Both the position numbers and the translations under genes were made by a program. A model generated the notes under the pieces. It worked only from the letters and a program-made list of their open reading frames with translations. It was not told the origin of the DNA and searched no databases. Of a stretch of 64,000 bases of DNA, positions 47,872 through 63,964 are shown in pieces. Every line of letters begins with the position of its first letter. Within the stretch, counting starts at the first letter, position 1. Where the stretch lies: the NCBI RefSeq assembly GCF_001583495.1, contig NZ_LQAQ01000073.1, positions 1-64,000 of the forward strand, given 5' to 3'. Origin of the DNA: Flammeovirga sp. SJP92. GTDB taxonomy: Bacteria > Bacteroidota > Bacteroidia > Cytophagales > Flammeovirgaceae.

Positions 47872-50064
47872 TTACAGTATAGTCACACTTGCTGTTTGGA
47901 ATTTTGCACCCAACTCAACACTTCTTTGCATTGGTGAGGCATTTCCGATTGTTATTTTTAATTTCCCTTTCGGGTCGATTGCTTTTCCTTTATCGTCAAA
48001 AATTTGTCTCTCTTCCTGTGAAATTTTGAAAGTCACTTCTTTCGATTCTCCCGGCTTCAAGCGTACTCTCTCAAATCCTTTCAATGAAGAGTTTGGTGCA
48101 TTAAACTTCACTTTGTAATCTGATAAGTAAAGCTGTACTACTTCTTCTGCTTCAAATTCTCCAGCATTGGTGATGGTCACTTTTGCTACTACTTCTTCTT
48201 TCGCTTTCAACTTTTCTTTAGAAAAAGAAATAGGACTGTAGTTGAATTCAGAATATGACATTCCATAACCAAATGGGTACATAGGGTCCGCATCCATATA
48301 TCTATAAGTTCTTCCTTCCATTGTGTAGTCTTCATAAGGAGGAAGTTGGTCCACTGACTTAGGGAACGTAATAGGAAGTTTTCCTGAAGGAGAAGCATTG
48401 CCAAAAATGATATCTCCAATAGCGTCACCACCCTCTTGTCCAGGATACCAAGCAAACAGAATTACGTCTGCAATTTCAGCAATCTCTGTCAAGTTCACTG
48501 GGCTTCCCGCAGTCAAAATCACGATCAAAGGATTTTTAGATTTAGAGCGGATTTTCTTCAAGTAAGCAATTTGGTTGGCAGGTAAATTCAAATCGTTTTT
48601 ATCTCCTTTAGACGCTGAAGCAATGGCCTCGCCTTCTTCACCTTCAATCAAACCTGAAATTCCCATCACAGCAATACAAGCATCTGCTGCGGCGGCTTCA
48701 CCCGTTGACCAGTCAATAGGGTTGCGGTTTTCACGGTCCAACATAATACCTTGTTTGTAATTGATACTTGTACCCAAGCTCACTTTACTTACAATTCCTT
48801 CTAAAATATTGGTCATATGACCACTCACTCCAAAGTAGTTGCCTAAAAGCACTTCACTGTTATTGGCATTAGGTCCCACTACATAAAGTGTTCTGATATC
48901 TTTCTTTAATGGAAGTACATTGTTGTCGTTTTTTAATAAAACGACTGATTTTAATGCGGCATCATAAGCCAATTTTCTGTGAGAAGCACACTCCACCGTA
49001 TCACCACTCACTTTGTTGAATGGGTTAATTTCAGCAGGGTCTAGAAGTCCCAATTTGATACGAGTTTCCAATAAATTTCTTAAACGAGCATCGACTTCCT
49101 TTTCAGTAATTAAACCTTGCTCTACCGCCGCTACGATACTTCCTTTATACACCTTGCCACAGTTTAAATCTGTTCCTGCTTTAATAGCTGCTGCCGTAGC
49201 TGCTTCAGGTGTCGGGTAAACTTTGTGGTGTGCATAAAAGTCTTGAATTGCTCCACAGTCTGAAACCACATGACCATCAAATCCCCATTCTTTTCTTAGA
49301 ATCTCTTCAAGTAGTAAATCACTGCCACAAGCAGGTTCACCAAACACTCTGTTGTAAGCGCCCATCACTGCTTCCACTTTACCTTCCTTCACCAATGTTT
49401 TGAAAGCAGGAAGATATGTTTCTCTAAAATCCCTCATGCTCGGAACAGCATCAAAAACGTGTCTGTCTTCCTCCGGACCAGAGTGTACAGCGTAGTGCTT
49501 AGCACATGCCGCGGCTTGAATATATTTTTCATGATCACCTTGCAATCCCTTTACAAAGTGCAAGCCCATTTGTCCAGATAAATAAGGATCCTCACCGTAC
49601 GTCTCTTGACCACGTCCCCAACGAGGGTCACGGAAAATATTGACATTTGGAGACCAGAAAGTAAGTCCTGCATATCGAGAACTATTATTCATTTCTTGAG
49701 CCACTAGAAACTTCGCTCTAGCTTCTGCACCAATGGCAGTGGCAATATCTTGAATTAATGCTTTGTCGAAACTGGCAGCCATACCAATTGCTTGAGGAAA
49801 AACGGTAGCTCTACCATTTCTTGCCACACCATGTAATGCTTCATTCCACCAGCTGTATTTTGGAATTTGCAGACGAGGGATTCCCTCACTGATATCCACC
49901 ATTTGAGAGGCTTTTTCCTCCAAAGTCATGGCCTTTAAAAGTGCATCAATTCTTTCGTCAGTATCTCTATAAGGATCTAACCAAATAAATTCTTCCTGTG
50001 CGATAGTTTGTTGAGCAGGCACTAAAAAAAACAAGCACCCCAATGCATATAAGTATCTAATCAT
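47872..50064 (-). CDS. GH3 beta-glycosidase
   Basis: 730 residues. Signal peptide 1-22. The TIM-barrel domain starts at about 28 with the EEKASQMVD segment, the catalytic pocket is CAKHYAVHSGPEEDR, and the nucleophile is Asp269 in VVSDCGAI. The (alpha/beta)6 sandwich follows (LLKNDNNVLPLKKD, GSPVNLTE, FAWYPGQEGG), with a C-terminal fibronectin-like domain (EEVVQLYLSD, LKGFERVRLKPGESK). The architecture fits beta-xylosidase/beta-glucosidase-type GH3; beta-galactosidase-like use in an algal galactan pathway is possible. First gene of the four-gene operon. Confidence 0.92.
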   Translation of the reverse strand: MIRYLYALGCLFFLVPAQQTIAQEEFIWLDPYRDTDERIDALLKAMTLEEKASQMVDISEGIPRLQIPKYSWWNEALHGVARNGRATVFPQAIGMAASFDKALIQDIATAIGAEARAKFLVAQEMNNSSRYAGLTFWSPNVNIFRDPRWGRGQETYGEDPYLSGQMGLHFVKGLQGDHEKYIQAAACAKHYAVHSGPEEDRHVFDAVPSMRDFRETYLPAFKTLVKEGKVEAVMGAYNRVFGEPACGSDLLLEEILRKEWGFDGHVVSDCGAIQDFYAHHKVYPTPEAATAAAIKAGTDLNCGKVYKGSIVAAVEQGLITEKEVDARLRNLLETRIKLGLLDPAEINPFNKVSGDTVECASHRKLAYDAALKSVVLLKNDNNVLPLKKDIRTLYVVGPNANNSEVLLGNYFGVSGHMTNILEGIVSKVSLGTSINYKQGIMLDRENRNPIDWSTGEAAAADACIAVMGISGLIEGEEGEAIASASKGDKNDLNLPANQIAYLKKIRSKSKNPLIVILTAGSPVNLTEIAEIADVILFAWYPGQEGGDAIGDIIFGNASPSGKLPITFPKSVDQLPPYEDYTMEGRTYRYMDADPMYPFGYGMSYSEFNYSPISFSKEKLKAKEEVVAKVTITNAGEFEAEEVVQLYLSDYKVKFNAPNSSLKGFERVRLKPGESKEVTFKISQEERQIFDDKGKAIDPKGKLKITIGNASPMQRSVELGAKFQTASVTIL

Positions 50065-50600
50065 TTCATTACCATTTAAAAAATTTGCTGCCGTTATGGT
50101 TTCAAAAATACTAGATTGGGGGTGCTGGCGGGGTGTATATTTTACACAAATAGAGGGGGGAGATTTGTTGTTCAGTAAAAGTCCATTGTTATGAGTTGAA
50201 AAAGATGCAACTCGAAAGGGGGATTTTGTCTTAGAATGCTATGTGATGTGTTTGTTTGGAAGGTATAGGGGAGCTGAGGGAAGAAATCGAATATTACTTT
50301 TTGGAGAGCTTGGGGGTTGAATGCTACAAATAAAAATAGCTGAATACGCAGTGAACGAAATTATTGTTGGTTATTAAAAGAGAAGTGTTTTGTCATAACC
50401 TATTAAGAGCAATGCTGTAGGGATGTTGCATTACATTGCCCTCATGAACTGCAATACATAACTATTTATTCTTCAAAAGAAGAACTCAATTTAAGGAATG
50501 AAAACTTAGTTTACAATCTACTTTACTTCACTCTTAGAAGATAAAAATTGAATGGAAATGCTCTCTTTAGATTAATAAAATATTGGGGCTATTAAATGTG
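50065..50600. other. Promoter region of GH3 operon and spacer before the CRISPR array
   Basis: 536 bp with no supportable ORF. It holds the candidate operator at 50133 beside G-runs, a stray copy of GAAAACTTAGTTTAC (50500-50514) related to the end of the dispersed repeat, and the trailer side of the CRISPR array. Confidence 0.5.
50133..50147. promoter_or_regulatory. Palindrome GTGTA-N5-TACAC upstream of GH3 operon
   Basis: About 70 bp upstream of the GH3 ATG, between a GGGG run and a GGGGGG run. It resembles the TTACAC/GTGTAA repeat upstream of the giant surface protein at 41374, so the two units may share a regulator. Confidence 0.45.
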
Positions 50601-53600
50601 TTTTGAATCCTTCTTTTCTTGGATCTAGGTCTTCGATAATGAGTGAACAAATTTCACATCAGATAAAAGAGCTGTCGTTATCCTTATTTTTCTGGATATT
50701 AGGTCTTCGATACATTAAGTGCACTTGGTTTAAAAACTTCAGATCCGTCGCCATCCTTGTTTTCTTGGATCTAGGTCTTCGACAGGCATTTGGAAACTAA
50801 GAAATAAATATAAGAAGAAGTCGCAATCCTTATTTTTTTGGATATAGATCTTTGACTTGGAAAGATTCAAAAGGTAAACGAGTAAATTAAACGTCTCAAT
50901 CCTTCTTTTCATGGATATAGTTCTTCGATAACGAAAGAATTGTATTAATTAAAAAGGAATTTGAAGTCGCCATCCTTCTTTTTTTGGATATCGGGCTTCG
51001 ACGAAATGGGAATATCAAATGCTGTACCTTCAGAGTTGTCGCCATCCTTGTTTTCTTGGATCTAGTTCTTCGGTCATTCGAGCCAACATGTCCTCGAGGA
51101 TTCCAGATGCTGTCGTCATCCTTCTTTTTTTGGATCTAGTTCTTCGACTGGTCTAAAGGTCATGCTTCAGTACAAATGGAAACGTCTCAATCCTTCTTTT
51201 TTTGGATCTAGTTATTGGACAGGAAGATCCAAAAACCAAAGTTAAGACTCCTATATCGTCATCCTTCTTTTACTGAATATATTTCTTCGATTTCCCTAAG
51301 CCAGCACACTGTGCTGGGGCAACTATGTCTCAATCCTTCTTTTCTTGGATCTAGTTCTTCGACTATTCAAACGTAATTATGACACAGTTGAGAAGATCAA
51401 GTCGCAATCCTTATTTTTTTGGATATAGGTCTTTGACATCAGGTAGTGAATTCCCTAAACCTGCTCATATGGCGTTGCCATCCTTCTTTTTTTGGATCTA
51501 GATCTTCGACATTGTTGACACTGAGCTTGAGAGTCACACTGTAAAGTCGCCATCCTTCTTTTTATGGATCTAGGTCTTCGATTCTATAAATCAAAACTAT
51601 AGAATCTAAAACAGTATAGGTCGTAATCCTTATTTTTTTGGATATATTTCTTCGACATGGGCTACTCTATCGCAGGATTTTCTCCTTGCGTGTCGCCATC
51701 CTTCTTTTTTTGGATATAGGTCTTCGACGAAATGGGAATATCAAATGCTGTACCTTCAGAGTTGTCGCCATCCTTCTTTTCTTGGATCTAGTTCTTCGGT
51801 CATTCGAGCCAACATGTCCTCGAGGATTCCAGATGCTGTCGTCATCCTTCTTTTTTTGGATATAGGTCTTCGACATAACTATGAATAAGTCAAACATATA
51901 CCAACAAAATGCGTCGCAATCCTTATTTTTTTGGATATAGGTCTTCGACATTATGAAACGAGAAGATTACGTAGCACCTACAGGGTCGCAATCCTTATTT
52001 TTTTGGATATAGGTCTTCGACAACAGTTATTGATGTAAGAGATTGTATTGACAACTAGTCGCAATCCTTATTTTTTTGGATATAGGTCTTCGACGATACA
52101 AATAACCATCCCTTATGAGAGTTACATTCACGTCGCAATCCTTATTTTTTTGGATATAGGTCTTCGACGCATGTTAAGGTGTATAAATATTCATGTAAAT
52201 AGTTGTCGCAATCCTTATTTTTTTGGATATAGGTCTTCGACAAAAAAGGGATAGAGAGTGATGCTCTCTATCCTTCTTGGTCGCAATCCTTATTTTTTTG
52301 GATATAGGTCTTCGACTCGAGGTTAGCAAGGTTATCGTAGGTAACATTGTCGTCGCAATCCTTATTTTTTTGGATATAGGTCTTCGACGAAACAGATCCA
52401 GTTCGTCGAATGATACCATCTAAAGTCGCAATCCTTATTTTTTTGGATATAGGTCTTCGACATACACTTGTACACGAGAAGGAAAGCCTACAAAACTGTC
52501 GCAATCCTTATTTTTTTGGATATAGGTCTTCGACTTTTCAACATATTAAGCTAAAGATATGAAGAAAATAAAGTCGCAATCCTTATTTTTTTGGATATAG
52601 GTCTTCGACATTAAAGAAGAACATCGCAACAAGTTTAGTGATGAAAGTCGCAATCCTTATTTTTTTGGATATAGGTCTTCGACAATTGAAATAATTGAGG
52701 TGAATGACACTCAAAAAGGTCGCAATCCTTATTTTTTTGGATATAGGTCTTCGACAGAAAAGGAACTAGAAGTCAGAAATGGTTTATATAGAAGTCGCAA
52801 TCCTTATTTTTTTGGATATAGGTCTTCGACAAAAGAGCTAGAAATCCGTAATGGTTTATATAGAAGTCGCAATCCTTATTTTTTTGGATATAGGTCTTCG
52901 ACAAATAATTTCATATATGAAAACTGAATTAGAATATAGTCGCAATCCTTATTTTTTTGGATATAGGTCTTCGACTTGAGCTTCGCGTACTGCAAGATGG
53001 GAAGATAGTCTGTCGCAATCCTTATTTTTTTGGATATAGGTCTTCGACAGTTACGATCAGCCATCGCAGTTCTATATAAACCGGTCGCAATCCTTATTTT
53101 TTTGGATATAGGTCTTCGACTAGAAGGTTACGAGGGATGCGTAATCAAGAGCATGTCGCAATCCTTATTTTTTTGGATATAGGTCTTCGACATGCTATTA
53201 TTAAGTCAATGGTTATCAAAAAGCAGTCGCAATCCTTATTTTTTTGGATATAGGTCTTCGACCCATTACAAAACCTTTACCACTATGGTGAAGGATCGTC
53301 GCAATCCTTATTTTTTTGGATATAGGTCTTCGACAAATTCAAATAATTGAGGTGAATGACACTCAAAAGGGTCGCAATCCTTATTTTTTTGGATATAGGT
53401 CTTCGACAAGTTAGAAAAGTACCAGTAGGCATAATCGAAATGAGTCGCAATCCTTATTTTTTTGGATATAGGTCTTCGACAAGTAATAGGATTTACTGTA
53501 TACTTTACAGGAGAGGTGGTCGCAATCCTTATTTTTTTGGATATAGGTCTTCGACACAAGAGGTCGTTAATTCATATTACAATTTTAAGAGGTCGCAATC

Positions 53601-53997
53601 CTTATTTTTTTGGATATAGGTCTTCGACAGCAACTGCTAAACTTGGTAAGCGTCATGCTGATGCGTCGCAATCCTTATTTTTTTGGATATAGGTCTTCGA
53701 CAAGAATTGAAATTGAAATCGTAGAGACAACAGATAGCCAGTCGCAATCCTTATTTTTTTGGATATAGGTCTTCGACACAAGAATTAAAAAACATCAAAA
53801 ACTCATTTAATAAGTCGCAATCCTTATTTTTTTGGATATAGGTCTTCGACGTTACAAGTTTGGATTTCATAATGTCTAGTGTGTTGTTGTCGCAATCCTT
53901 ATTTTTTTGGATATAGGTCTTCGACCATATAGATTGTAACCTACTAAGTTCTCGTAAGAAGTCGCAATCCTTATTTTTTTGGATATAGGTCTTCGAC
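50601..53997 (-). CRISPR. Type III-A CRISPR array, 47 repeats / 46 spacers
   Basis: Repeats are 37 bp at a 71-76-bp period, with spacers of about 34-39 bp. Repeats 19-47 (51913 to 53997) match the consensus, which begins GTCGCAATCC, has a T7 run and GGATATAGGTC, and ends TTCGAC. Repeats 1-18 (50601-51874) are degenerate, with recurring changes such as TCTCAATCCTTC and GGATCTAGTTC. Decay at the left end means the trailer is left and the leader right, next to cas2. On the minus strand the repeat ends GGATTGCGAC, giving an ATTGCGAC 5' handle like the type III ATTGAAA(C/G) handle. An ATCC/GGAT stem lies inside the repeat and GTCG/CGAC at its ends. Transcription is therefore inferred to be leftward. 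Confidence 0.97.
52242..52273 (-). terminator. Intrinsic-terminator-like spacer 23
   Basis: The spacer between repeats 23 and 24 (52242-52279) contains a perfect 10-bp stem GGATAGAGAG/CTCTCTATCC with a 5-nt loop. On the minus strand it is followed by C and six T directly before repeat 23. It therefore looks like an intrinsic terminator in the inferred pre-crRNA direction. Confidence 0.75.
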
Positions 53998-54236
53998 AGC
54001 TTCTTTGCAATAAATTGAAAATCAATGAGTAAAAATGTTAAAATAGGAATAATGAAAATTTATCTTAGAATAAATCATAAATTATTCTAAGATAAAATAG
54101 TATTTAACTTAGTGTGTTTTTACTCATTTTCTATACTGTCAAAAATTTCGACATAGAAAAAAGAGATTCAATACGTCAAAAATCGTATAAATCTTAGTAG
54201 ATTTCATCTAAAGGTCTTGTTTTTCAATAAAAAAAT
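53998..54236. promoter_or_regulatory. Putative CRISPR leader with nested inverted repeats
   Basis: 239 AT-rich bp between the last repeat and cas2. The inner hairpin has 15-bp perfect arms TTTATCTTAGAATAA (54059-54073) and its complement (54082-54096). An outer pair AATGAGTAAAAA (54024-54035) and TTTTTACTCATT (54117-54128) encloses it. On the minus strand the inner hairpin is followed by TTTTCATTATT, so it can also end the cas2 transcript. No convincing Bacteroidota promoter (TTTG / TAnnTTTG) was recognised between it and the array. Confidence 0.6.
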
Positions 54237-54539
54237 CTAAAAGTACTTCGTTAAATTATGTGAATATATTTTTTGAATAGCGTTCTCATTTCCAATAAAT
54301 TGACTGGATTGTAATTGTTTACTATCCATTGGGAAGAAGAATAGACTGTCTTCAGTATCTCCTTTTTCTTCTAGGAGTGCTCTTAATTCATCATACATTA
54401 GATGAAAGCCTTTCTTTTTGAGTGGCAGTGAAATAAATACTGATTTCTGAATCCGATCACAACCATGCTTTAGAATAGTTTTCATCACTGAAGTTCTCAG
54501 TTTGTTATCACTAATATCATAGCAAATTAAATATCTCAT
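54237..54539 (-). CDS. cas2: CRISPR-associated endonuclease Cas2
   Basis: 100 residues. Forms the Cas1-Cas2 integrase that inserts new spacers. The start RYLICYDISDNKLRTSVMKT carries the beta1 D of Cas2 (YDIS); the middle has CDRIQKSVFIS and DSLFFFPM, matching the family's RIQ.SVF and D.(I)..(P) strands. Normal length. It is the last gene of a three-gene operon, starting 2 bp after the membrane-protein gene, and adjoins the leader side of the array. Confidence 0.92.
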   Translation of the reverse strand: MRYLICYDISDNKLRTSVMKTILKHGCDRIQKSVFISLPLKKKGFHLMYDELRALLEEKGDTEDSLFFFPMDSKQLQSSQFIGNENAIQKIYSHNLTKYF

Positions 54540-54541
54540 CG

Positions 54542-55084
54542 CTATTTTGTTAGAAATAATACTTTAGTCACATACATCACCGTAATACAAATTATCAAAG
54601 AAATGATCATTACATAGAATAAGTTCTTTTCATAAAAAGGTGTTCTCGTTCCATGTTTCACTTCTTTCTCCATTCTACCTGCTAATTGTTCAAGTTCTTC
54701 TTCCGAAAGAGGTTCGGGGTGTTCAATATGTCTTTCTGTAGGAAATAAAGTCTCATTATTATTGTCTTGATAAATCCAAAACCTCACTCCCCCAAATCCT
54801 GAACACGCACCTCTACCTTTTTTCTCTTGTTTTGAACCGTCCATACATATACACCCAATTCTTTTCCCTATGGGTTTATACCTCTGTTGATAGTTTCCAT
54901 GAGTAGATTTTTCACCTTCAATATCAGAAGTCCGTAATATTTCTTCCAGTTCCTCGACGCTGATACCATCTTCATAAATCGTAGAATCTGTATCAATAGG
55001 AGGGTAGGGCATACTCACTTGTCCGAACACCAATACCAAATGAAAAAATAGAAGAATGGTAATAATTATAGCATGCTTATTCAT
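54542..55084 (-). CDS. Exported membrane-anchored protein between cas1 and cas2 (DUF3761-like motif)
   Basis: 180 residues: signal peptide 1-21 (ends VFGQ), an acidic stretch (residues 34-60), a motif region at 76-103 (CICMDG, GRGACSGFGGVRFW), a charged linker and a C-terminal transmembrane helix at about 155-177 with a short KVLFLTK tail. The C-x-DG...G.CSG.GGV..W pattern resembles DUF3761, a small exported domain of unknown function. It overlaps the cas1 stop by 8 bp and ends 2 bp before the cas2 ATG, so it is translationally coupled to both. I know no adaptation protein with this layout. It would face the periplasm, while Cas1-Cas2 are cytoplasmic. Confidence 0.75.
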   Translation of the reverse strand: MNKHAIIITILLFFHLVLVFGQVSMPYPPIDTDSTIYEDGISVEELEEILRTSDIEGEKSTHGNYQQRYKPIGKRIGCICMDGSKQEKKGRGACSGFGGVRFWIYQDNNNETLFPTERHIEHPEPLSEEELEQLAGRMEKEVKHGTRTPFYEKNLFYVMIISLIICITVMYVTKVLFLTK

Positions 55085-56063
55085 GATTGTATTTTTTTAA
55101 AATTGTAGCCAATGCAAAACTGTCTAGATCGATTTGTGTGGTACGTTTGTGTTTTTCCTTTTTACCTCTTACCGGAGCTTCTAAAAATTTAGAGAAATAC
55201 TGAATCACAATCGGTTTTCCAGAATTTCCTAACCACATTCCACCACCATCTAATCGTTGGAAGTCTTGTTCACTTAAAAGTTCATGTTGTGCCAAAGCAA
55301 TACAAGCTTCATCAACATATATTCTATAACATTCTATGATGTCAAATACCATTGCTGGTTTTCTATGCTGGTCAGCATGTAAAACGCCAACATAAGGGTC
55401 AACACCTGCTTTCATAAGTGAGAGTTCAACAAAAGAATAAAGCATTCCATACATATAGTTGAGGATGCAATTGAACATGTCTTTTGCAGGTCTAGTAGAT
55501 CGTGTAGGAAATTGCCAGTTTTTGGGCAGTACAAAATTAAGGGCTTTAAAATAACACTTGCCGCTAAATCCTTCCAAGCCTCTTAGTGTAGCTTTAATCT
55601 CACTTTTAGGAAGCGTAAAATCAATGACTTTTCTTCTTAATTTTTCGTATTCAATTTCAAGGTCCAAAAGATAGGGGTTGATGGATTTTTGTTCTTTTTC
55701 ATAATACTTCAGCAATTGAATTTGATTCAAGACTTTTGCTTCAATAATTTTCTTGATCCAATCAATGCCTTTATTGCTTTCTGCAAAAAAAGCTTGATTT
55801 CTCCGGATTGTGGCAATACTACCAAACTGTCCACTCCATACCTGACCAATGGGCTTACCGATAGCATCAAGCAGCAGCATTGGAATACTGTTTTCAATGG
55901 CCATTCGCATAGCATTAGTACTTACACTCACACCTCTAGTAAGAAAAATGCATTTTACTTTAGGAACTGCCACCAACTGTGGTGTACTATGTTGAGGTTT
56001 TACCCAAAACATTTCATCTTTTACTCCTAGGTAAGCCCCATAAGAGTCAATAAAAAGTTGCAT
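55077..56063 (-). CDS. cas1: CRISPR-associated integrase Cas1
   Basis: The frame extends to a GTG at 56102, but the ATG at 56063 gives the natural start (MQLFIDSYGAYLGVKDEMFW) and 328 residues. Metal-binding residues are in the E-G-x-(S/A)-(G/A) segment (LRGLEGFSGKCYF), the H of VGVLHADQHRKPAMVFDIIE and the downstream D/E. VSVSTNAMRMAIENSIPML is the N-terminal beta-to-helical transition. First gene of the leftward cas1-membrane protein-cas2 operon. Confidence 0.95.
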   Translation of the reverse strand: MQLFIDSYGAYLGVKDEMFWVKPQHSTPQLVAVPKVKCIFLTRGVSVSTNAMRMAIENSIPMLLLDAIGKPIGQVWSGQFGSIATIRRNQAFFAESNKGIDWIKKIIEAKVLNQIQLLKYYEKEQKSINPYLLDLEIEYEKLRRKVIDFTLPKSEIKATLRGLEGFSGKCYFKALNFVLPKNWQFPTRSTRPAKDMFNCILNYMYGMLYSFVELSLMKAGVDPYVGVLHADQHRKPAMVFDIIECYRIYVDEACIALAQHELLSEQDFQRLDGGGMWLGNSGKPIVIQYFSKFLEAPVRGKKEKHKRTTQIDLDSFALATILKKYNHE

Positions 56064-56152
56064 AGATTTTAAAGTAAAGTTTACTGTGCAGATAGGTTGC
56101 ACGGAACTGAATTATACTTGTGGTGTGTTTGATTCTAATTTTAAATAAAACT

Positions 56153-56590
56153 ATGAAAAAATATATTATATTACAAATTATAATTTTATGTTTTTCTTCG
56201 CTAGTATCAGCCCAGAATGTGTTTTACGATCAACTTTATCGTGCAGATTACTCATGGGTATACCAACGTCAATCTGATGGATCTTATAAAGAAATCAATG
56301 AGATCAATTGGAGGTTGAATATTCGTTTTACAGAAACACATGTCAGAGTGGATGATTCTGCAGATCAGAAGAAGTTTGTGTATAAAATTGATGAAATAAA
56401 GACGGAAAACAACGGTCAGAAGATTGTGGTTCAGGCTAATAACTATGGCAGTAAGTTTATACTGTACTGGGGAGAGAGTCGAGCGGGAGAGAAGGGTTGG
56501 TTTCTCACATGGTATTGGGGAGAATACGAACACTCCAATCACTTTAAATACAAGCAGGAGATGAGTATACTGAGAAAAGTATATTATTAA
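56153..56590 (+). CDS. Small secreted protein inside the CRISPR-Cas locus
   Basis: The frame opens earlier at a GTG, but the ATG at 56153 begins a clear signal peptide (MKKYIILQIIILCFSSLVSA). The mature protein has about 125 residues, aromatic and beta-rich (RADYSWVYQRQSDGSYKEIN, KGWFLTWYWGEYEH). No family recognised. It is divergent from cas1 (about 90 bp apart) and upstream of cas6 on the same strand, with 173 bp between. It is the second exported protein in this locus; a link to the cas1-cas2 membrane protein is only a positional inference. Confidence 0.6.
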   Translation: MKKYIILQIIILCFSSLVSAQNVFYDQLYRADYSWVYQRQSDGSYKEINEINWRLNIRFTETHVRVDDSADQKKFVYKIDEIKTENNGQKIVVQANNYGSKFILYWGESRAGEKGWFLTWYWGEYEHSNHFKYKQEMSILRKVYY

Positions 56591-56677
56591 AATAGAAGTA
56601 TACAATGATTGTAATAAATGTTAATAATGTGAAAATTTGTTTAGTGTATTGTTATATTCACTTGTAACTTTTTAAGT

Positions 56678-56696
56678 GTTGCATTAATAATGCAAC
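56678..56696. promoter_or_regulatory. Perfect 19-nt palindrome upstream of cas6
   Basis: GTTGCATTA-A-TAATGCAAC lies 67 bp before the cas6 ATG, in the 173-bp gap after the secreted-protein gene. It is a candidate operator of the effector operon, or a hairpin ending the upstream gene (a T-run follows about 10 bp later). Which one cannot be decided from sequence. Confidence 0.5.
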
Positions 56697-56763
56697 TAAA
56701 TGCTACAGATTTTTTAAACAATTTTTTTGCTAAACTTCTACCTAAAACTAATACACATGTATT

Positions 56764-57435
56764 ATGCAAAAGCTGAAAATATTAAAAGTGCAATTTGATG
56801 CACAGATAGCTCCATATGAAGTGCCAGCTTTCAGAGGGGCAATAGCCGCTAAAGTTCCTAGAGATTCAGTCTTATACCATAATCATGACGGAGAAAAATT
56901 ACGTTATGGTTATCCACTAATTCAATACAAACGTATTGGACGCAATCCTACTATTGTCTGTGTAGGCGAGGGTGTAGATGAAATCCATAAGTTTTTTGAA
57001 AATAAGGATTGGGGTGTGGAGATTTCTGGGAGGAGGTTGGAGATGAAAATCAAAGACCTTGATGTAAAGCACCTAACGATGCAGGTCTGGGACCAAGACT
57101 TCTATTACAGAATTACAAACTGGCTTCCTCTAGGTGCTGAGGCGTTCAGAGAATATCTTGGTATGTCCACTCAAGAGGAACAGATTCGATTTCTTGAAAC
57201 AAAGTTGATTGGCAACATCATTTCAATGGCAAAGGGTATCAATTGGACAATTGATAAACAAATTCGAGTAAAAATTAAAGAAATTGAAAGTATAAAATCA
57301 ATAAAATTTAAGCAAACAAAACTGTTGTCTTTCAGCTTAAACTTTTCTACCAATGTTTTTATACCTCATCATTTAGGGTTGGGTAGAAAGGCAGGCTTTG
57401 GACATGGCATTATTAGAAAGCAAAACAATAATTAA
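56764..57435 (+). CDS. cas6: CRISPR RNA endonuclease Cas6
   Basis: 223 residues. It cuts pre-crRNA within repeats to release crRNAs with an 8-nt 5' handle. The N-terminal ferredoxin-like half has FRGAIAAKV and the YGYPLIQYKRIGRNP strand. The C-terminal glycine-rich RNA-binding loop is HLGLGRKAGFGHGIIRK (about 203-219). His-containing segments near YHNHDGEK are possible catalytic positions. It starts the rightward effector operon, 3 bp before cas10. Confidence 0.88.
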   Translation: MQKLKILKVQFDAQIAPYEVPAFRGAIAAKVPRDSVLYHNHDGEKLRYGYPLIQYKRIGRNPTIVCVGEGVDEIHKFFENKDWGVEISGRRLEMKIKDLDVKHLTMQVWDQDFYYRITNWLPLGAEAFREYLGMSTQEEQIRFLETKLIGNIISMAKGINWTIDKQIRVKIKEIESIKSIKFKQTKLLSFSLNFSTNVFIPHHLGLGRKAGFGHGIIRKQNNN

Positions 57436-57438
57436 TAT

Positions 57439-59994
57439 ATGATACAATCAGAAAGTAGCGAATTGTATTTATATAGTTTATGGAAGGGAATCAAGTCTAG
57501 AGATAGTGAATGTGCAAAATTGATAGAAACAAAATGTAGGCATTCAAATCTTAAGCTTGATGAAGACCGTGAATTATCAATCATTTACAATGAAGCTACA
57601 AGAATGGCTTATGGGAAAAGTAAGTCTAACTCTTCACAGCAAAAAGTGAGAAATATTTTTGACAATATTCATGTTAAAAATAAGCAAAGCTTATATGAAA
57701 ACTATTATAATTTTGAATCTCTAAATTTCACATCTTTATCAGAAGACAATAAAAGTATTTTTCCTAACCAAGTAAAAAAGGAAAGCAGCGATAAAGAAGT
57801 CTGGAAAAACTTTAGAGAAGAAGGAATAGATAGAATAGAAAATGGAAGCAAACCAAGGGTAGTTGCTGAAATTATTCAGCATTTATCAAAAAAATACACT
57901 TGGTGTTTACCTGCTTATTCTACTTCTGCTGCAATGAGTTTTTATGAGTACGAAAAGTCAAAAACAGCATTCTTCTTATCTCTTTATAAATACCTCAATG
58001 AGAAAAATTTAAAGTTTGAAGATTTAAGTGAGTCAGAAGAACCATACTTAATGCTGTGTGGAGATGTTTCTGGAATTCAGAAGTTTATCTATAATATTTA
58101 TTCAAGAAAAGCATCTAAAAGTTTAAAAGGGCGTTCTTTTTATCTTCACCTTTTAGTAGAAACCATAATCGATCATATTTTATCGGATGTTGCTATTGAC
58201 CTGCATTTACCAAATATTATTTATGCATCTGGAGGAAAGTTTTATTTACTATTACCCAATTTACCAAAAGTAAAAGAAGCTTTAGGTAGAATTGAGAAGG
58301 AAATTGTAACACGAATTTTCAATAAGCATAAAACGGATTTATATGTATGCTTAGGTTATGTATCTTTTGGTATTAATAAAGATGCTGAGGTCTTTTCGTC
58401 TTACCAAGATAGCTTAAGAAAGGTAAATTCTTTTTCTACTTTATGGGGTGCGACCTCAAATGAAGCGGCAAAGAAGAAAAGTAAACGCTTTGAACATTTA
58501 TTTACTAATGCTGAACCTATAATAGATAATGGTCAAGATAAAGTGGTAGGTGGTTTTGATGCTTTTTTTGGAAAAAATGGAATTGCCACCAGTGATGCAA
58601 TAAATGATGGTTCAACAACAACTCGTTGTGTAGTAACAGGTGACCCCGTACCCAGAAAGAAAGAATATGAATTAGATAAGTTTGATGAGAAGAGTTCCGA
58701 AAAACTTTATGCGACTAAAGCTGTTTTAGAACAAATTCAGTTAGGAAGTACACTCCAAGAATCTCAGTTTATATTAAGTGGCGAGTCGAAGGAGTCAACT
58801 TCAATAAAAAATGCCATTGATCCTTTAGGGATTGGCGAAATGTTACAAGTATTTAATAAAGAGAAGCAACTATTTGCATCTATAGATCCTGATTATGACG
58901 GAATCATTAGGCTGAAATCAATTAATGATATCCTATTTCTTTCCAAAATGAAAGGAGGAGATCAAATGATTAAAAATCTTTCAAGAGGATTTACCTTATA
59001 TGGAGGTAATAAACAAGCCCAAACAATCAATGGAAAAGGGAAAACTAGACCCAAAACATTTGATGAATTGGCAGGCAGTGAGGTAGATGATTTCGATGTT
59101 CAGCATATCGGTTACAAGAGATTGGGTGTCTTAAGAATGGATGTAGATAACCTAGGGCAAATTTTTATTAAAGGTTTGCAAAATGAAGATCAATCTTTTG
59201 CTTCTTATTCTTTCTTGTCAGGCCAGTTAGATTTGTTCTTTAGTGGCTATCTTAATGCGATTAGAGATAGTGGTATTACCAATCAAGGAGAGCGATATGA
59301 AGACTGGGTAAATATCATTTATTCGGGTGGTGACGATGTGTTTGCTGTGGGTAGATGGGATATGTTATTATCGTTTGCAAAGAGAGTAAGAAGTGATTTT
59401 AGGAAATTTGTTGGAGGAAGAGAAGACATATCCCTATCTGCGGGAGTTGCTGCAGTAGGTGGTAAATTCCCAATAAGTAAAGCTGCAGATATGGCAGGTG
59501 ATGCTGAAAGCAAGGCAAAGAAATTCAATAGTGAAGCTAAAAATGCTTTCTCTTTAATGATACATGGTATTGCTGAAGATAACTCTCTAAATGAAATAGT
59601 TAAAGATCATATTTCGGGTGATACTTTTAGCTGGGATAAAGAATATGACTTTGTAGAAGTACTTGCTGAAGATTTAGAAGAACGTCTACAATCTGGTTTG
59701 GCAAAGGGACTTTTAGGTAAACTTACTTATTACAGGATTCTCAAAAACGAGAACAAGCTAGATTGGTGGTGGCTTTCTGCTTATCACTTTTCGCAATTAG
59801 AAAAGAAAGCATCAAATGCTGAAGCGACTTTACTTGAAGCTCTTAAAAAAGCATTAGTAACAGGGAAATTTGAAATGAACTCTATTTCCAATGAAAATAT
59901 TAATATCAATTACCAAGCATCAACAAAAGAAAGAATGCTTGATTTGATAAATGCTTCTTTACGTATTGCAGATTTGAAGAATAGAAATAATTAA
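57439..59994 (+). CDS. cas10: Cas10/Csm1, HD nuclease lost, cyclase GGDD intact
   Basis: 851 residues; large subunit of the type III-A complex and, by family, the synthase of cyclic oligoadenylates on target-RNA binding. Palm-1 signature CGDVSGIQKFIYNIYSRKAS near 207, then linker. The catalytic palm has LRMDVDNLGQ at about 567-573 and GGDD at residues 630-633 in YSGGDDVFAVG. SAGVAAVGGKFPISKAADMA is the usual following helix. The N-terminal HD motif is absent: the expected LHD position reads LYLYSLWKGIKSR, and the later Y.H....A helix has Y-E-Y-E. Only one Cys (TTRCVVTGDP) remains of the zinc ribbon. ssDNase activity is therefore probably lost. Confidence 0.92.
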   Translation: MIQSESSELYLYSLWKGIKSRDSECAKLIETKCRHSNLKLDEDRELSIIYNEATRMAYGKSKSNSSQQKVRNIFDNIHVKNKQSLYENYYNFESLNFTSLSEDNKSIFPNQVKKESSDKEVWKNFREEGIDRIENGSKPRVVAEIIQHLSKKYTWCLPAYSTSAAMSFYEYEKSKTAFFLSLYKYLNEKNLKFEDLSESEEPYLMLCGDVSGIQKFIYNIYSRKASKSLKGRSFYLHLLVETIIDHILSDVAIDLHLPNIIYASGGKFYLLLPNLPKVKEALGRIEKEIVTRIFNKHKTDLYVCLGYVSFGINKDAEVFSSYQDSLRKVNSFSTLWGATSNEAAKKKSKRFEHLFTNAEPIIDNGQDKVVGGFDAFFGKNGIATSDAINDGSTTTRCVVTGDPVPRKKEYELDKFDEKSSEKLYATKAVLEQIQLGSTLQESQFILSGESKESTSIKNAIDPLGIGEMLQVFNKEKQLFASIDPDYDGIIRLKSINDILFLSKMKGGDQMIKNLSRGFTLYGGNKQAQTINGKGKTRPKTFDELAGSEVDDFDVQHIGYKRLGVLRMDVDNLGQIFIKGLQNEDQSFASYSFLSGQLDLFFSGYLNAIRDSGITNQGERYEDWVNIIYSGGDDVFAVGRWDMLLSFAKRVRSDFRKFVGGREDISLSAGVAAVGGKFPISKAADMAGDAESKAKKFNSEAKNAFSLMIHGIAEDNSLNEIVKDHISGDTFSWDKEYDFVEVLAEDLEERLQSGLAKGLLGKLTYYRILKNENKLDWWWLSAYHFSQLEKKASNAEATLLEALKKALVTGKFEMNSISNENININYQASTKERMLDLINASLRIADLKNRNN

Positions 59995-60004
59995 AAAATA
60001 TATC

Positions 60005-60412
60005 ATGTCTAATATTAATGAAATAAAATCCTCATGGATTAAAGAAGGAATGGACCGTGAAGCGGTAAAATTTGCCGAAACTTTAGCTAAAGAACTTGTA
60101 GATCTAAATGATCGAGGTTTTACAGGTAGAAATGCAATGACAACATCACAAGTCAGAAATTTTTTTGGGGAAGTTAGGAGAATACAAATGAAAGGTTCTA
60201 ATCAGAACCAAAGTGATTTTTATATGTTACAACCAAAACTAGCTTACGCTGTTGCTCGTGTAGGTAATAGAAATGCAAAGATTAATAAGTTTCAAGAAGT
60301 AACCAATCAACTCCTAAATTTTGTAGATCCTAAAAATGTAGCTGAGTATGATAATTTGGTTTCGTTTTTAGAAGCTGTGGTAGCTTATCATAAAGCAAAT
60401 AACGGTAAATAA
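60005..60412 (+). CDS. csm2: Csm2, small subunit of type III-A complex
   Basis: 135 residues. All-helical Csm2 with the family core MTTSQVRNFFGEVRRIQ and the LQPKLAYAVARVG helix, ending in an FLEAVVAYHK helix. It lies 10 bp after cas10. Together with Csm3-Csm5 it identifies the system as subtype III-A rather than III-B or III-D. Confidence 0.9.
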   Translation: MSNINEIKSSWIKEGMDREAVKFAETLAKELVDLNDRGFTGRNAMTTSQVRNFFGEVRRIQMKGSNQNQSDFYMLQPKLAYAVARVGNRNAKINKFQEVTNQLLNFVDPKNVAEYDNLVSFLEAVVAYHKANNGK

Positions 60413-60438
60413 CTCAACAAAAAATATTTATACAAAAG

Positions 60439-61188
60439 ATGGCAAAGAAATTAGTTAAAAAGATTATCATCAAAGGTAATATTGAAGCAAAAACAGGTCT
60501 ACATATTGGAGGTTCTAATTTAAACTTACAAATCGGTGGTGTTGACTCAGCAATTGTGAAAAACCCGCTAACCGATAAACCTTATATTCCAGGAAGCTCA
60601 TTAAAAGGAAAAATCCGTTCACTACTAGAACAAACGAATGGTTTGATTGGAGGAGCACAGGGCAAACAAATACAACATGGTCCAAGTAAAAAAGGTAAAG
60701 TAGCTGAAGTTTTTGGAAGAACAGATAATGAAGGGAATTCAGGTAATATTCCTTCGAGAGTTATTTTTAGAGATTGCGAGCTAATTGATGAAGAGGAAGT
60801 TCTAAAAAACAATAAAAATACAGATTTACCATATACTGAGGTAAAGACTGAAATTGTGATGGATAGAATTACAGCAGCGGCTACACCTAGACAGTTAGAA
60901 CGTGTGCCTGCTGGGACTACTTTTGATCTTGAATTAGTCATAAATATTTATGAAGGTCATGAAGTTTATTCAGAAAGATCAGAAGAGGAAACTGTTCAAC
61001 TAATCTTTGGAGGATTACAACTTTTACAAGATGACTATATTGGAGGAAGTGGTTCAAGAGGAAGTGGTCAAATCAAATTCAATATAGAACAAGTTTTGGA
61101 AAGAGATATTGAAACTTATTATGGAAAAGCAGATGCTTCAGATGTTGATTATACAACAGTAGCATTACCAGATAGTTTAAAAGCATAA
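60439..61188 (+). CDS. csm3: Csm3, backbone RNase subunit
   Basis: 249 residues, RAMP fold. Lines the crRNA and cuts the bound target RNA at 6-nt intervals. LHIGGSNLNLQIGGVDSAIV contains the catalytic Asp36 in the conserved GG-(A/V)-D-x-x-(V/I) position, followed by PYIPGSSLKGKIRSLLE. The thumb-like insertion has PSRVIFRDCEL and EIVMDRITAAATPRQLE. The glycine-rich GGSGSRGSG loop is near the C-terminus. All expected motifs are present. Confidence 0.95.
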   Translation: MAKKLVKKIIIKGNIEAKTGLHIGGSNLNLQIGGVDSAIVKNPLTDKPYIPGSSLKGKIRSLLEQTNGLIGGAQGKQIQHGPSKKGKVAEVFGRTDNEGNSGNIPSRVIFRDCELIDEEEVLKNNKNTDLPYTEVKTEIVMDRITAAATPRQLERVPAGTTFDLELVINIYEGHEVYSERSEEETVQLIFGGLQLLQDDYIGGSGSRGSGQIKFNIEQVLERDIETYYGKADASDVDYTTVALPDSLKA

Positions 61189-61247
61189 TTACCAATAATC
61201 AATAGAGGTTTATACTCTATTGGTTATTCTTTAGAATAAAAACAGGT

Positions 61248-62345
61248 ATGTTAAGAGTCTATAAATTACATTTTTCAACTCCTTTACATTTATCGGATGA
61301 ATCAGAAGGATATGATAAATCTCAAAGTTTGCTTCATTCTGATACTTTGCACGCCGCAATTATGAGTACTTATGCTCTATTAGGTAAAACAGAAGCTATC
61401 CCTCATGATGGAGTTCCTCCCTTTACAATAAGTTCTTTATTTCCTTTTGCTCAAGCTGAAGAAAATAAAGAAACAACATATTTTTTACCAAAACCATTTA
61501 AACCTTTCAACCCGAATAAACTATCAGAAGAAGAAGCAAAAAAGATAAAAAAGATAGAGTGGATTGAATTATCCTTGTTCAAACAACTGATAGGTGAGAA
61601 AGGATTGGCAATCGAGAAAGATTATATCCATAAAGGAAAATTCCTAGCCAAATGTAAAATAGGAAAAGTGATGGATACAGAAATGTCTCAAAGAGTTGTT
61701 ATACGAAGAGATCGAACAGCTACAGGTATAGATAATGTTTCTCAGGTGTTTGGAGGGTTTAGTGTACCGGAAAAAGTAGCACCTGATCAAGAAACAACAC
61801 CTTTTTATATTGAAAAACTAAGATTTTCAAAAGGTAGTGGGTTGTACTTTATTTATGAAGGAGATGAAAAGAATAGTTCACTATTTGAAACTGCTCTTCA
61901 ATTATTAGGAGATGAAGGCATAGGAACAGATCGAAATGTAGGAATGGGTAAATTTTCATTTGAGAAAGTCGATTTGAAGAGTGAGAAGGTTTGGGATCAT
62001 TGGGACACTATGTGCCAATTGAAGTCAGATTATTCAGTGACATTATCCTTATACTGTCCGAAAGATGAAGAGGAATTATCCAAAGCACTTGAGGGAGCGA
62101 AATACAACTTAATAAAAAGAGGGGGATATATAACCACGGAGCCTTTTAATGCCTTACGAAAAAGAGAAGTTTACATGTTTGCTGAAGGCAGTGTTTTTAG
62201 ATTTACTCCAAATGAAGTAAGAGGGAAATCTGTAAATCTTCAACCTGATATTACAAAGCTTGAAGAATATACCAATACTACAGCACACCCAATATGGCGT
62301 GTTGGCAAAGCAATGTTATTACCAATAGTCCCTGAAGTAAGATGA
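61248..62345 (+). CDS. csm4: Csm4, 5'-handle-binding RAMP subunit
   Basis: 365 residues. Caps the crRNA 5' end and contacts Cas10. N-terminal strand YKLHFSTPLHLSDE with the S-(D)-T-L-H-A-A-I motif (LLHSDTLHAAIMSTY). Central MSQRVVIRRDRTATGI and the glycine-rich EGIGTDRNVGMGKFSF, then an ITTEPFNALRKREVYMFAEG C-terminal domain. It ends overlapping the csm5 start by 4 bp (ATGA). Confidence 0.93.
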   Translation: MLRVYKLHFSTPLHLSDESEGYDKSQSLLHSDTLHAAIMSTYALLGKTEAIPHDGVPPFTISSLFPFAQAEENKETTYFLPKPFKPFNPNKLSEEEAKKIKKIEWIELSLFKQLIGEKGLAIEKDYIHKGKFLAKCKIGKVMDTEMSQRVVIRRDRTATGIDNVSQVFGGFSVPEKVAPDQETTPFYIEKLRFSKGSGLYFIYEGDEKNSSLFETALQLLGDEGIGTDRNVGMGKFSFEKVDLKSEKVWDHWDTMCQLKSDYSVTLSLYCPKDEEELSKALEGAKYNLIKRGGYITTEPFNALRKREVYMFAEGSVFRFTPNEVRGKSVNLQPDITKLEEYTNTTAHPIWRVGKAMLLPIVPEVR

Positions 62346-63964
62346 ATACAGAATACAATCAAAATTATCAACTAGATATTGAAGCTGTTACTCCTGTTTA
62401 CGTTGGAGCAGGGAAGGAAAAAGATTGGATGAAAGATTATGAATTCATCTATGATGATGGGTTTGTGTATGTTCTTGATCTTGAAAAGCTTTACAGTATT
62501 ACATCGGATCTTAAAGAAATTCAAAGGATTAGTTCTCTAATTGTTGATAAAAAATTGACTTCTTATTTAAAACAACAAAGCATTGATTTAAATAGTATTT
62601 CAAAATATGTATTTGAATTAGAGACGGGTTTACCTAGTAAAGAAATAAAAACATTTATTAGAAATGGAATGGGTAAAACTTATTTACCAGGATCTTCAAT
62701 AAAAGGAGCTGTTAAAAGTGTCTTGTTTAATGAACTGTATAAAAAATATAGTCAAAATGGACAAAATACAGTAAAGGTTTCTACAGATATGTTTCTCAAG
62801 AATAAAAGAGAAAAAGCATGGAGAGAAATTGAAGAAAATACTTTTGGTAAAATCAATACTAGTCTTGGGAGATTATTAAGAATAACTGATGGCGAATTTA
62901 ATCATACCAAATTAATGCCCTCAAAGATTAACAATAGATATGGTGATGATTTAGATCAAGGTTGGAAACATGCTTTAGATGAAAATGGAGAGTATTTTGA
63001 CCCTGTAAAGTTTGTGACAATTCAAGAGGTAATGCCAATTGGTGAGAAAAGTAGTGTGCGATTTTCATTCGCTGAAAAACTACTATCCAATTTTGAATAT
63101 TACGCGCCAAATAACTCGACTACTTATAAAAAACAAAGATATCTTTTTCCTAATTCAAAAGATAAGTTAGCCAGCTTATTCAAAATTATCAATAGGTATA
63201 CTAAAGAATTTATTTTAAAGGAAATTGACTATTTTGAAGATGAAAGTACTGATTATCATAATAAAGAGACAAGTCAGCTTATTGAATCTTTCAGATTGAT
63301 TTTAAAGAAAATACCCAATGATAATTCATATGCTATTTTAAGGATGTCGGCAGGAAGTTCTTTTCATGGAATGACCGGAGACTGGAGGTTTAATAGCCAT
63401 TTAGAAACCTTAGAACAAGGGAAAGAAGATCATCTTAATTTAGTTTATAATGTTCATAGTAGAACCAAAGAAAAAGCATTATATAAATCAAGAAAATTCA
63501 TTTTCAGTGAAGGAACTTTAGATGAATATGAATTTTATCCTCCGGGTTTTATAAAGCTATCTTCTCCTGACTTAACAATAACAAAAGAGACAGAACAAGT
63601 AATTGAAAAACAGGAAGAGAACTTTATTGAAGCAACAAAAAAAGTAGATGAAATAGAAAAAGAAGAACCTGTTATAAAAGAAGCAATAGTAGTAGAAGAA
63701 GATAAAAAAACGGTTGTAAATATACCTTCTCTGGGGCAAGAACTAGCTTCAAATATACAGGTCAAAGTTTCAATTAAAAAAGTTGGGACACCGCATTCGG
63801 AAGTATGTTTAATGATTGATGGTGAAGTACATCAGTTTAAAATGTCAGGCACAAAGAAAATGAAAAAAGAAAAGTCTGACATAGCTGAAGGTGATGAAGT
63901 ACTTGTAGAATTAACTGTTAAAGAAGGTAGTATTCGGATGTCTAAATATATAGGGTTAAAATAA
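62342..63964 (+). CDS. csm5: Csm5 with C-terminal linker and extra small domain
   Basis: 540 residues, well above the usual ~350-400 for this RAMP subunit, which binds the crRNA 3' end. The RAMP core covers about 1-400: LDIEAVTPVYVGAGKEKDW, KTYLPGSSIKGAVKSVLFNE, PIGEKSSVRFSFAEKL, and the AGSSFHGMTGDWR segment. After PPGFIKL (about 400) comes an acidic linker (405-460, rich in E and K). A domain of about 75 residues follows (465-540) with alternating strands (QVKVSIKKVGTP, EVCLMIDGEVHQF, GDEVLVELTVKEG), reminiscent of OB-fold/S1-like barrels, but the fold is uncertain. Downstream gene starts 1 bp after the stop. Confidence 0.9.
   Translation: MNTEYNQNYQLDIEAVTPVYVGAGKEKDWMKDYEFIYDDGFVYVLDLEKLYSITSDLKEIQRISSLIVDKKLTSYLKQQSIDLNSISKYVFELETGLPSKEIKTFIRNGMGKTYLPGSSIKGAVKSVLFNELYKKYSQNGQNTVKVSTDMFLKNKREKAWREIEENTFGKINTSLGRLLRITDGEFNHTKLMPSKINNRYGDDLDQGWKHALDENGEYFDPVKFVTIQEVMPIGEKSSVRFSFAEKLLSNFEYYAPNNSTTYKKQRYLFPNSKDKLASLFKIINRYTKEFILKEIDYFEDESTDYHNKETSQLIESFRLILKKIPNDNSYAILRMSAGSSFHGMTGDWRFNSHLETLEQGKEDHLNLVYNVHSRTKEKALYKSRKFIFSEGTLDEYEFYPPGFIKLSSPDLTITKETEQVIEKQEENFIEATKKVDEIEKEEPVIKEAIVVEEDKKTVVNIPSLGQELASNIQVKVSIKKVGTPHSEVCLMIDGEVHQFKMSGTKKMKKEKSDIAEGDEVLVELTVKEGSIRMSKYIGLK

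Follow-up and report, generated by a model that had tools for sequence, protein, structure and literature searches.

A putative intrinsic terminator, probably captured from an invader, as a spacer of a type III-A CRISPR array whose older variant repeats are probably not its consequence

Can a CRISPR array take up, as one of its own spacers, a signal that restricts the expression of that array, and are the worn repeats that lie beyond such a spacer its effect? The question is raised by a locus in Flammeovirga sp. SJP92 (NCBI RefSeq assembly GCF_001583495.1, contig NZ_LQAQ01000073.1), of which we analysed the stretch from position 1 to 64,000, referred to here as the 64-kb window. The array consists of 47 repeats (R1 to R47), each of 37 nt, at 50601-53997, and it is adjoined by cas2, an ORF of 180 amino acids and cas1 on the minus strand and by cas6, cas10/csm1 and csm2 to csm5 on the plus strand (Table 1). 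This gene content, cas10/csm1 and csm2-csm5 together with cas6, cas1 and cas2, is that of a type III-A CRISPR-Cas locus. Two ORFs amid the cas genes, one between cas1 and cas2 (54542-55084, 180 aa) and one ahead of cas6 (56120-56590, 156 aa), had no match in Pfam, PADLOC or NCBIfam at an E value of 0.001, and a search of 50000-57000 against Rfam gave no match. Within the presumed leader are two perfect inverted repeats, one nested in the other, of 12 bp (54024-54035/54117-54128) and 15 bp (54059-54073/54082-54096).

Table 1. Features of the CRISPR array and the adjoining cas genes, in window coordinates.
Feature	Coordinates	Strand	Remark
Variant (old) repeats R1-R18 with their spacers	50601..51874	-	S6-S7 recur as S16-S17
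Repeats R19-R23, beyond the hairpin	51913..52241	-	Identical to the consensus
R23	52205-52241		
Spacer 23, terminator-type spacer	52242..52279	-	Leftward, the presumed crRNA strand
TTTTTT	52242..52247	-	Leftward, one C (52248) past the stem; abuts R23
Perfect 10-bp stem	52249..52273	-	Arms 52249-52258 and 52264-52273; 5-nt loop 52259-52263
R24	52280-52316		
Leader-side repeats R24-R47	52280..53997	-	Identical
Presumed leader	53998..54236	-	Between the array and cas2
cas2	54237..54539	-	
cas1	55077..56102	-	
cas6	56764..57435	+	Cas6b type
Type III-A effector genes	57439..63964	+	cas10/csm1, csm2, csm3, csm4, csm5

Read leftward, spacer 23 runs CAAGAA-GGATAGAGAG-CATCA-CTCTCTATCC-C-TTTTTT and then enters R23. 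The initial annotation had described a perfect 10-bp stem with a 5-nt loop, followed in the leftward direction by C and TTTTTT directly before repeat 23, and the coordinates bear out each part of that description. It had also proposed RNA folding as a check: in RNAfold, the minus strand of 52220-52285 reached −23.7 kcal/mol, far more stable than its shuffles (mean, −8.39 kcal/mol; z = −6.41; 0 of 200 as good). The bare hairpin has an energy of −14.6 kcal/mol, and the T-run contains 7 T in 8 at the best offset, leftward. Spacer 23 thus has both the stable stem-loop and the U-run directly after the stem that mark an intrinsic (Rho-independent) terminator, a type of signal that has been annotated in Bacteroides thetaiotaomicron (PMC7366714).

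A lenient scan of 50400-54700 returned three terminator-like sites compared with 2.6 in shuffles, which is the level of chance, so that only the combination of the long stem and the T-run distinguishes spacer 23. Under a strict test (a perfect stem of at least 7 bp, at least 4 core G-C pairs and at least 6 T in 8), the thresholds of which were fixed after a list of hairpin spacers was in view, the two strands of the window contain three sites, spacer 23 among them. The other two lie 48 and 55 nt past same-strand stop codons, and the energy of the spacer 23 hairpin falls between theirs (−17.3 and −9.7 kcal/mol). Given this likeness to the gene-end terminators of the host, we infer that the hairpin is a real terminator-type signal. 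A second hairpin, in spacer 10 (CCAGCAC/GTGCTGG, loop of 3), has no T-run, and that spacer reads as coding.

Leftward transcription of the array is likely, with support from a presumed leader on the cas side, a repeat motif and the codon-strand bias of the spacers. Both cas2 and cas1 are on the minus strand to the right of the array, and the minus-strand repeat ends in GGATTGCGAC, as do the repeat ends of related arrays. We extracted arrays from 160 cas-locus regions and the window (99 of these 161 hold arrays, 122 in total, three of which were judged false). With the window set aside, 61 arrays were compared under a repeat-end rule: the end predicted to be distal was the more mutated one in 43, the two ends tied in 17, and the leader end had more mutations in 1. 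Because the mismatch list was already known when the rule was drawn up, and because the rule was amended once (42 distal, 17 tied and 3 leader among 62 arrays before; 44, 17 and 1 afterward, window included), these counts are support rather than proof and are not fully independent. As an independent line of evidence, a codon model trained on the genes of the window favoured the plus strand for 31 of the 44 unique spacers (p = 0.0096; the control gave 1692 of 2000); for spacers 1 to 22 alone the figure was 13 of 20, which is not significant. If the plus strand is the coding one, minus-strand crRNAs would be antisense to mRNA, which is what a type III system needs. Sigma-70-type and Bacteroides-type scans of the leader stayed at chance and revealed no recognizable promoter.

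In our judgment it is probable that spacer 23 is an intrinsic terminator, likely of invader origin, which the type III-A array took up like any ordinary spacer and which acts there as a partial terminator, and that the variant repeats R1-R18 did not result from it. Most likely, polymerase would enter at the right-hand leader and read leftward through the 23 newer spacers before it reaches spacer 23, where the hairpin and U-run would release a fraction of the transcripts right before R23. The crRNAs of spacers 1 to 22 would be lowered and probably not abolished. The variants of R1-R18 would already have been present when R19-R23, and later spacer 23, were added. The initial annotation had spoken of leftward transcription being cut ahead of repeats 1 to 23; its signal and its likely direction both stand, and since leftward transcription is likely, partial termination at this point is plausible, the effect on transcription being itself a prediction.

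R19 to R47 are all identical, and R1 to R18 all depart from it, with between 1 and 12 bases changed (the highest count, 12 in R2, is a shift caused by an indel), in agreement with the pattern of degenerate repeats 1-18 and still-matching repeats 19-23 first noticed in this array. The change falls between R18 and R19, five repeats beyond the hairpin; with one variant or nonvariant call per repeat, a change point after R18 beats one after R23 by 12 log units. Since R19-R23 are perfect though they too lie beyond the hairpin, where wear would also be expected, silencing is a poor cause of the change. With R2 left out, derived bases common to the variant repeats gave 224 pairwise sharings, compared with a random mean of 28.8 and a maximum of 51 in 2,000 trials. 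Likewise without R2, the ATCC/GGAT stem of the repeat had 1 change in 136 bases versus 82 in 493 elsewhere (column permutation, 0.0076, for stem columns picked from the pattern across arrays; the pairing that RNAfold gives for the consensus repeat is somewhat different). Spacers S6-S7 (50966-51148) recur as the identical S16-S17 (51692-51874), with flanking repeats that differ at 2, 1 and 2 positions, and the junction repeats resemble variant/consensus hybrids, R16 and R18 each consisting of a variant left part and a consensus right part. The shared derived bases and the kept stem suggest that R1-R18 represent older versions of the repeat that recombination among repeats has reshuffled, rather than products of decay. 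Age and shuffling explain the worn repeats past the hairpin better than the terminator does; the ageing of the old block may have preceded or followed the arrival of the hairpin. A search for the window's repeat in eight other genomes of the genus gave no match.

Variant repeats at the distal end are common. Of the 57 oriented arrays with 10 or more repeats, 44 had a variant among the last 10 repeats, and 10 (the window included) had five or more; no other array of those ten holds a strict sense terminator. Sharp blocks of variants without a strict terminator were present in L051 (from R17), L098 and L074. The L074 array (L074:13324-20000), which continues up to the limit of the sequence retrieved, switches abruptly to another version of its repeat at R76, the 16 repeats from there on having one base change in common. 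Looser sense hairpins were found past the block boundary in two of these arrays, at spacer 85 of L074 (5 T in 8; boundary at R76) and, with two G-C pairs, at spacer 18 of L051, two repeats past its boundary. Strict or terminator-type sense spacers also occur in type I loci. In L076, which has Cas3, Cas1 and Cas4, the sense terminator is spacer 34 of 38 when numbering starts at the distal end, and all 34 repeats beyond it are identical; the terminator may be a recent gain. The type I-B array L040 carries the same sense terminator-type spacer twice in tandem, as spacers 16 and 17 of 23 (L040:13476-13656), and two of the seven repeats beyond it, R21 and R24, are variant. A search of genome_contigs for Cas1 relatives yielded none that could be confirmed.

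The strict test was passed by 7 of 3,160 unique spacers, on eight strands (three sense and five antisense), versus 0.43 strict strands in dinucleotide shuffles of the same 3,160 spacers (maximum, 3 in 60 rounds). The sampled regions, 59 chosen by Cas6b and 101 by Cas1, are a subset of the places listed; three false arrays were set aside, along with 51 spacers that were duplicates or of odd length, and an array interrupted by the end of a region entered the count as separate pieces. At all 12 thresholds used, terminators were more numerous than in shuffles, and sense and antisense ones were about equally frequent (for example, 3:5, 7:7 and 11:12). There was no visible purge of the sense orientation among the sampled terminator spacers (3:5, sense to antisense). 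All seven strict spacers were in arrays with Cas6-type repeats (7 of 2,015 versus 0 of 1,145 others; Fisher, 0.054). As backgrounds we used 36-mers from four annotated phages (55 of 199,856 strict), from 71 viral loci (426 of 702,031) and from the cas-locus contigs (242 of 452,470), leaving out L213 (by annotation a near twin of L209), L224 and L274. These backgrounds suggest a 3.6- to 8-fold excess of terminators among spacers. The excess may only mirror which phages were met, because one 12-kb stretch of a 274-kb viral contig (L010:1-12171), with 55 strict sites among 12,135 36-mers, alone has twice the spacer rate and is unusually rich in strict terminators when set against the 71 other viral loci. 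In five stretches gathered as an independent test set, a quick look found no array.

A phage origin of spacer 23, which the initial annotation had suggested, found no backing: no full protospacer match appeared in viral_contigs, phage records, genome_contigs or the organism's own genome. Up to 2 mismatches, the genome held no copy beyond the array; the best phage record matched at most 17 of 38 bases; and pattern scans gave stem-only matches, one in viral_contigs and 10 in genome_contigs. The viral match, in L010, has the identical stem with another loop, 13 nt past a stop codon of the 274-kb viral contig, and a T-rich tract comes after it. Among the 11 stem matches (this one and ten genome stretches), nine fall outside any ORF of 90 aa or more, and two, in L202 and L205, fall inside one. 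We rejected them as the source of spacer 23, as their differing loops indicate convergence on a stem.

When spacers 19 to 46 were compared with phage records, only one weak match of 29 bases appeared, to the RNA ligase gene of T4-like phages (E = 0.2). The match belongs to spacer 35 (53121-53154), the plus strand of which reads EGYEGCVIKS and matches RB43-like phage RNA ligase genes at 27 of 29 bases. The array also contains near-twin spacers with closely similar plus-strand peptides: spacers 29 and 38 (52684-52718 and 53335-53370; IEIIEVNDTQK and IQIIEVNDTQK), spacers 30 and 31 (52756-52793 and 52831-52865; ELEVRNGLYR and ELEIRNGLYR) and spacers 10 and 12 (51292-51326 and 51438-51473; FPKPAH). 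They look as if the same sites of related invaders had been captured more than once.

The terminator in spacer 23 might be inert: antitermination, or the combination of a short U-run with a moderate 10-bp stem, could let polymerase pass, and spacers 1 to 22 would then be expressed normally. Stringer et al. are said to have described antitermination of bacterial CRISPR arrays in 2020, and sense counts that roughly equal antisense counts at all 12 thresholds are what would be expected if sense copies cost little. The same equality may also mean that silencing old spacers costs little, however, and a count of 7:7 excludes only a sense share outside 0.23-0.77; moreover, the signal of spacer 23 matches that of the strict gene-end terminators in the same window. 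We consider an inert terminator unlikely. It is very unlikely, in our estimation, that the inverted repeat is part of a coding sequence and no more than resembles a terminator. The plus strand of spacer 23 does have one open frame, which the codon model slightly favours (dLL, 0.32 per codon), but a coding origin sits poorly with a perfect 10-bp stem joined to a T-run, with eight strict strands where shuffling of the sampled spacers leaves fewer than one on average, and with the position of the identical stem just past a viral stop codon.

The model first put forward for this array was that a captured terminator silenced repeats 1 to 23 and that relaxed selection then let R1-R18 decay. All of the variant repeats are indeed on the far side of the hairpin, as that model would have it. 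Yet the perfect repeats R19-R23, the change at R18/R19, the shared derived bases and the kept stem all argue against it, as do the identical repeats beyond the sense terminator of L076, the sharp variant blocks of L051, L074 and L098, the frequency of worn distal ends (44 of 57 oriented arrays) and the nine other heavily worn arrays that have no strict sense terminator. We regard it as highly improbable.

If the hairpin of spacer 23 works as the captured partial terminator that we favour, the extent of array expression would be set by a single acquired spacer, and truncation by stored memories could befall any CRISPR array. The 7 strict spacers in 3,160 are a first count of terminator spacers in Bacteroidota-type arrays, and the lack of a visible purge of the harmful orientation makes the question testable in named arrays such as L076 and L040. 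A caution is also in order: worn repeats past a hairpin need not be its effect. We are doubtful of a broader generalization, which appears improbable to us, in which spacer-borne terminators would be a recurrent natural limiter, taken up beyond their share in phages and unpurged when in the sense orientation, so that arrays would often shut off their own older spacers and one hairpin would set the depth of working memory.

In the literature searched, which was covered in part, we found no bacterial case of a spacer acting as a terminator. A close parallel is archaeal. PMC4390879 describes promoter and terminator motifs on spacers of the Sulfolobales and a protein that damps them, and it proposes selection against spacers that bear such motifs. 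As is proposed for the array described here, spacers from A+T-rich invaders can bring in promoter or terminator motifs that disturb array transcription; the archaeal case involves archaeal signals and a repeat-binding protein, whereas ours involves a bacterial stem-loop terminator in a Bacteroidota-type III-A array. For type II-C systems, PMC12080349 reports Rho-independent terminators upstream of the arrays and more mutations in the extra repeat there. In both systems an intrinsic terminator would shape which part of the array is transcribed, but the type II-C terminator is external to the array and protects it from transcription entering from outside, while here the terminator is an acquired spacer. 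The variant block, for its part, resembles the usual leader-distal degeneration in that older repeats at the far end depart from the consensus, and it differs in being unusually long (18 repeats) and in containing two repeat versions and a duplicated two-spacer segment.
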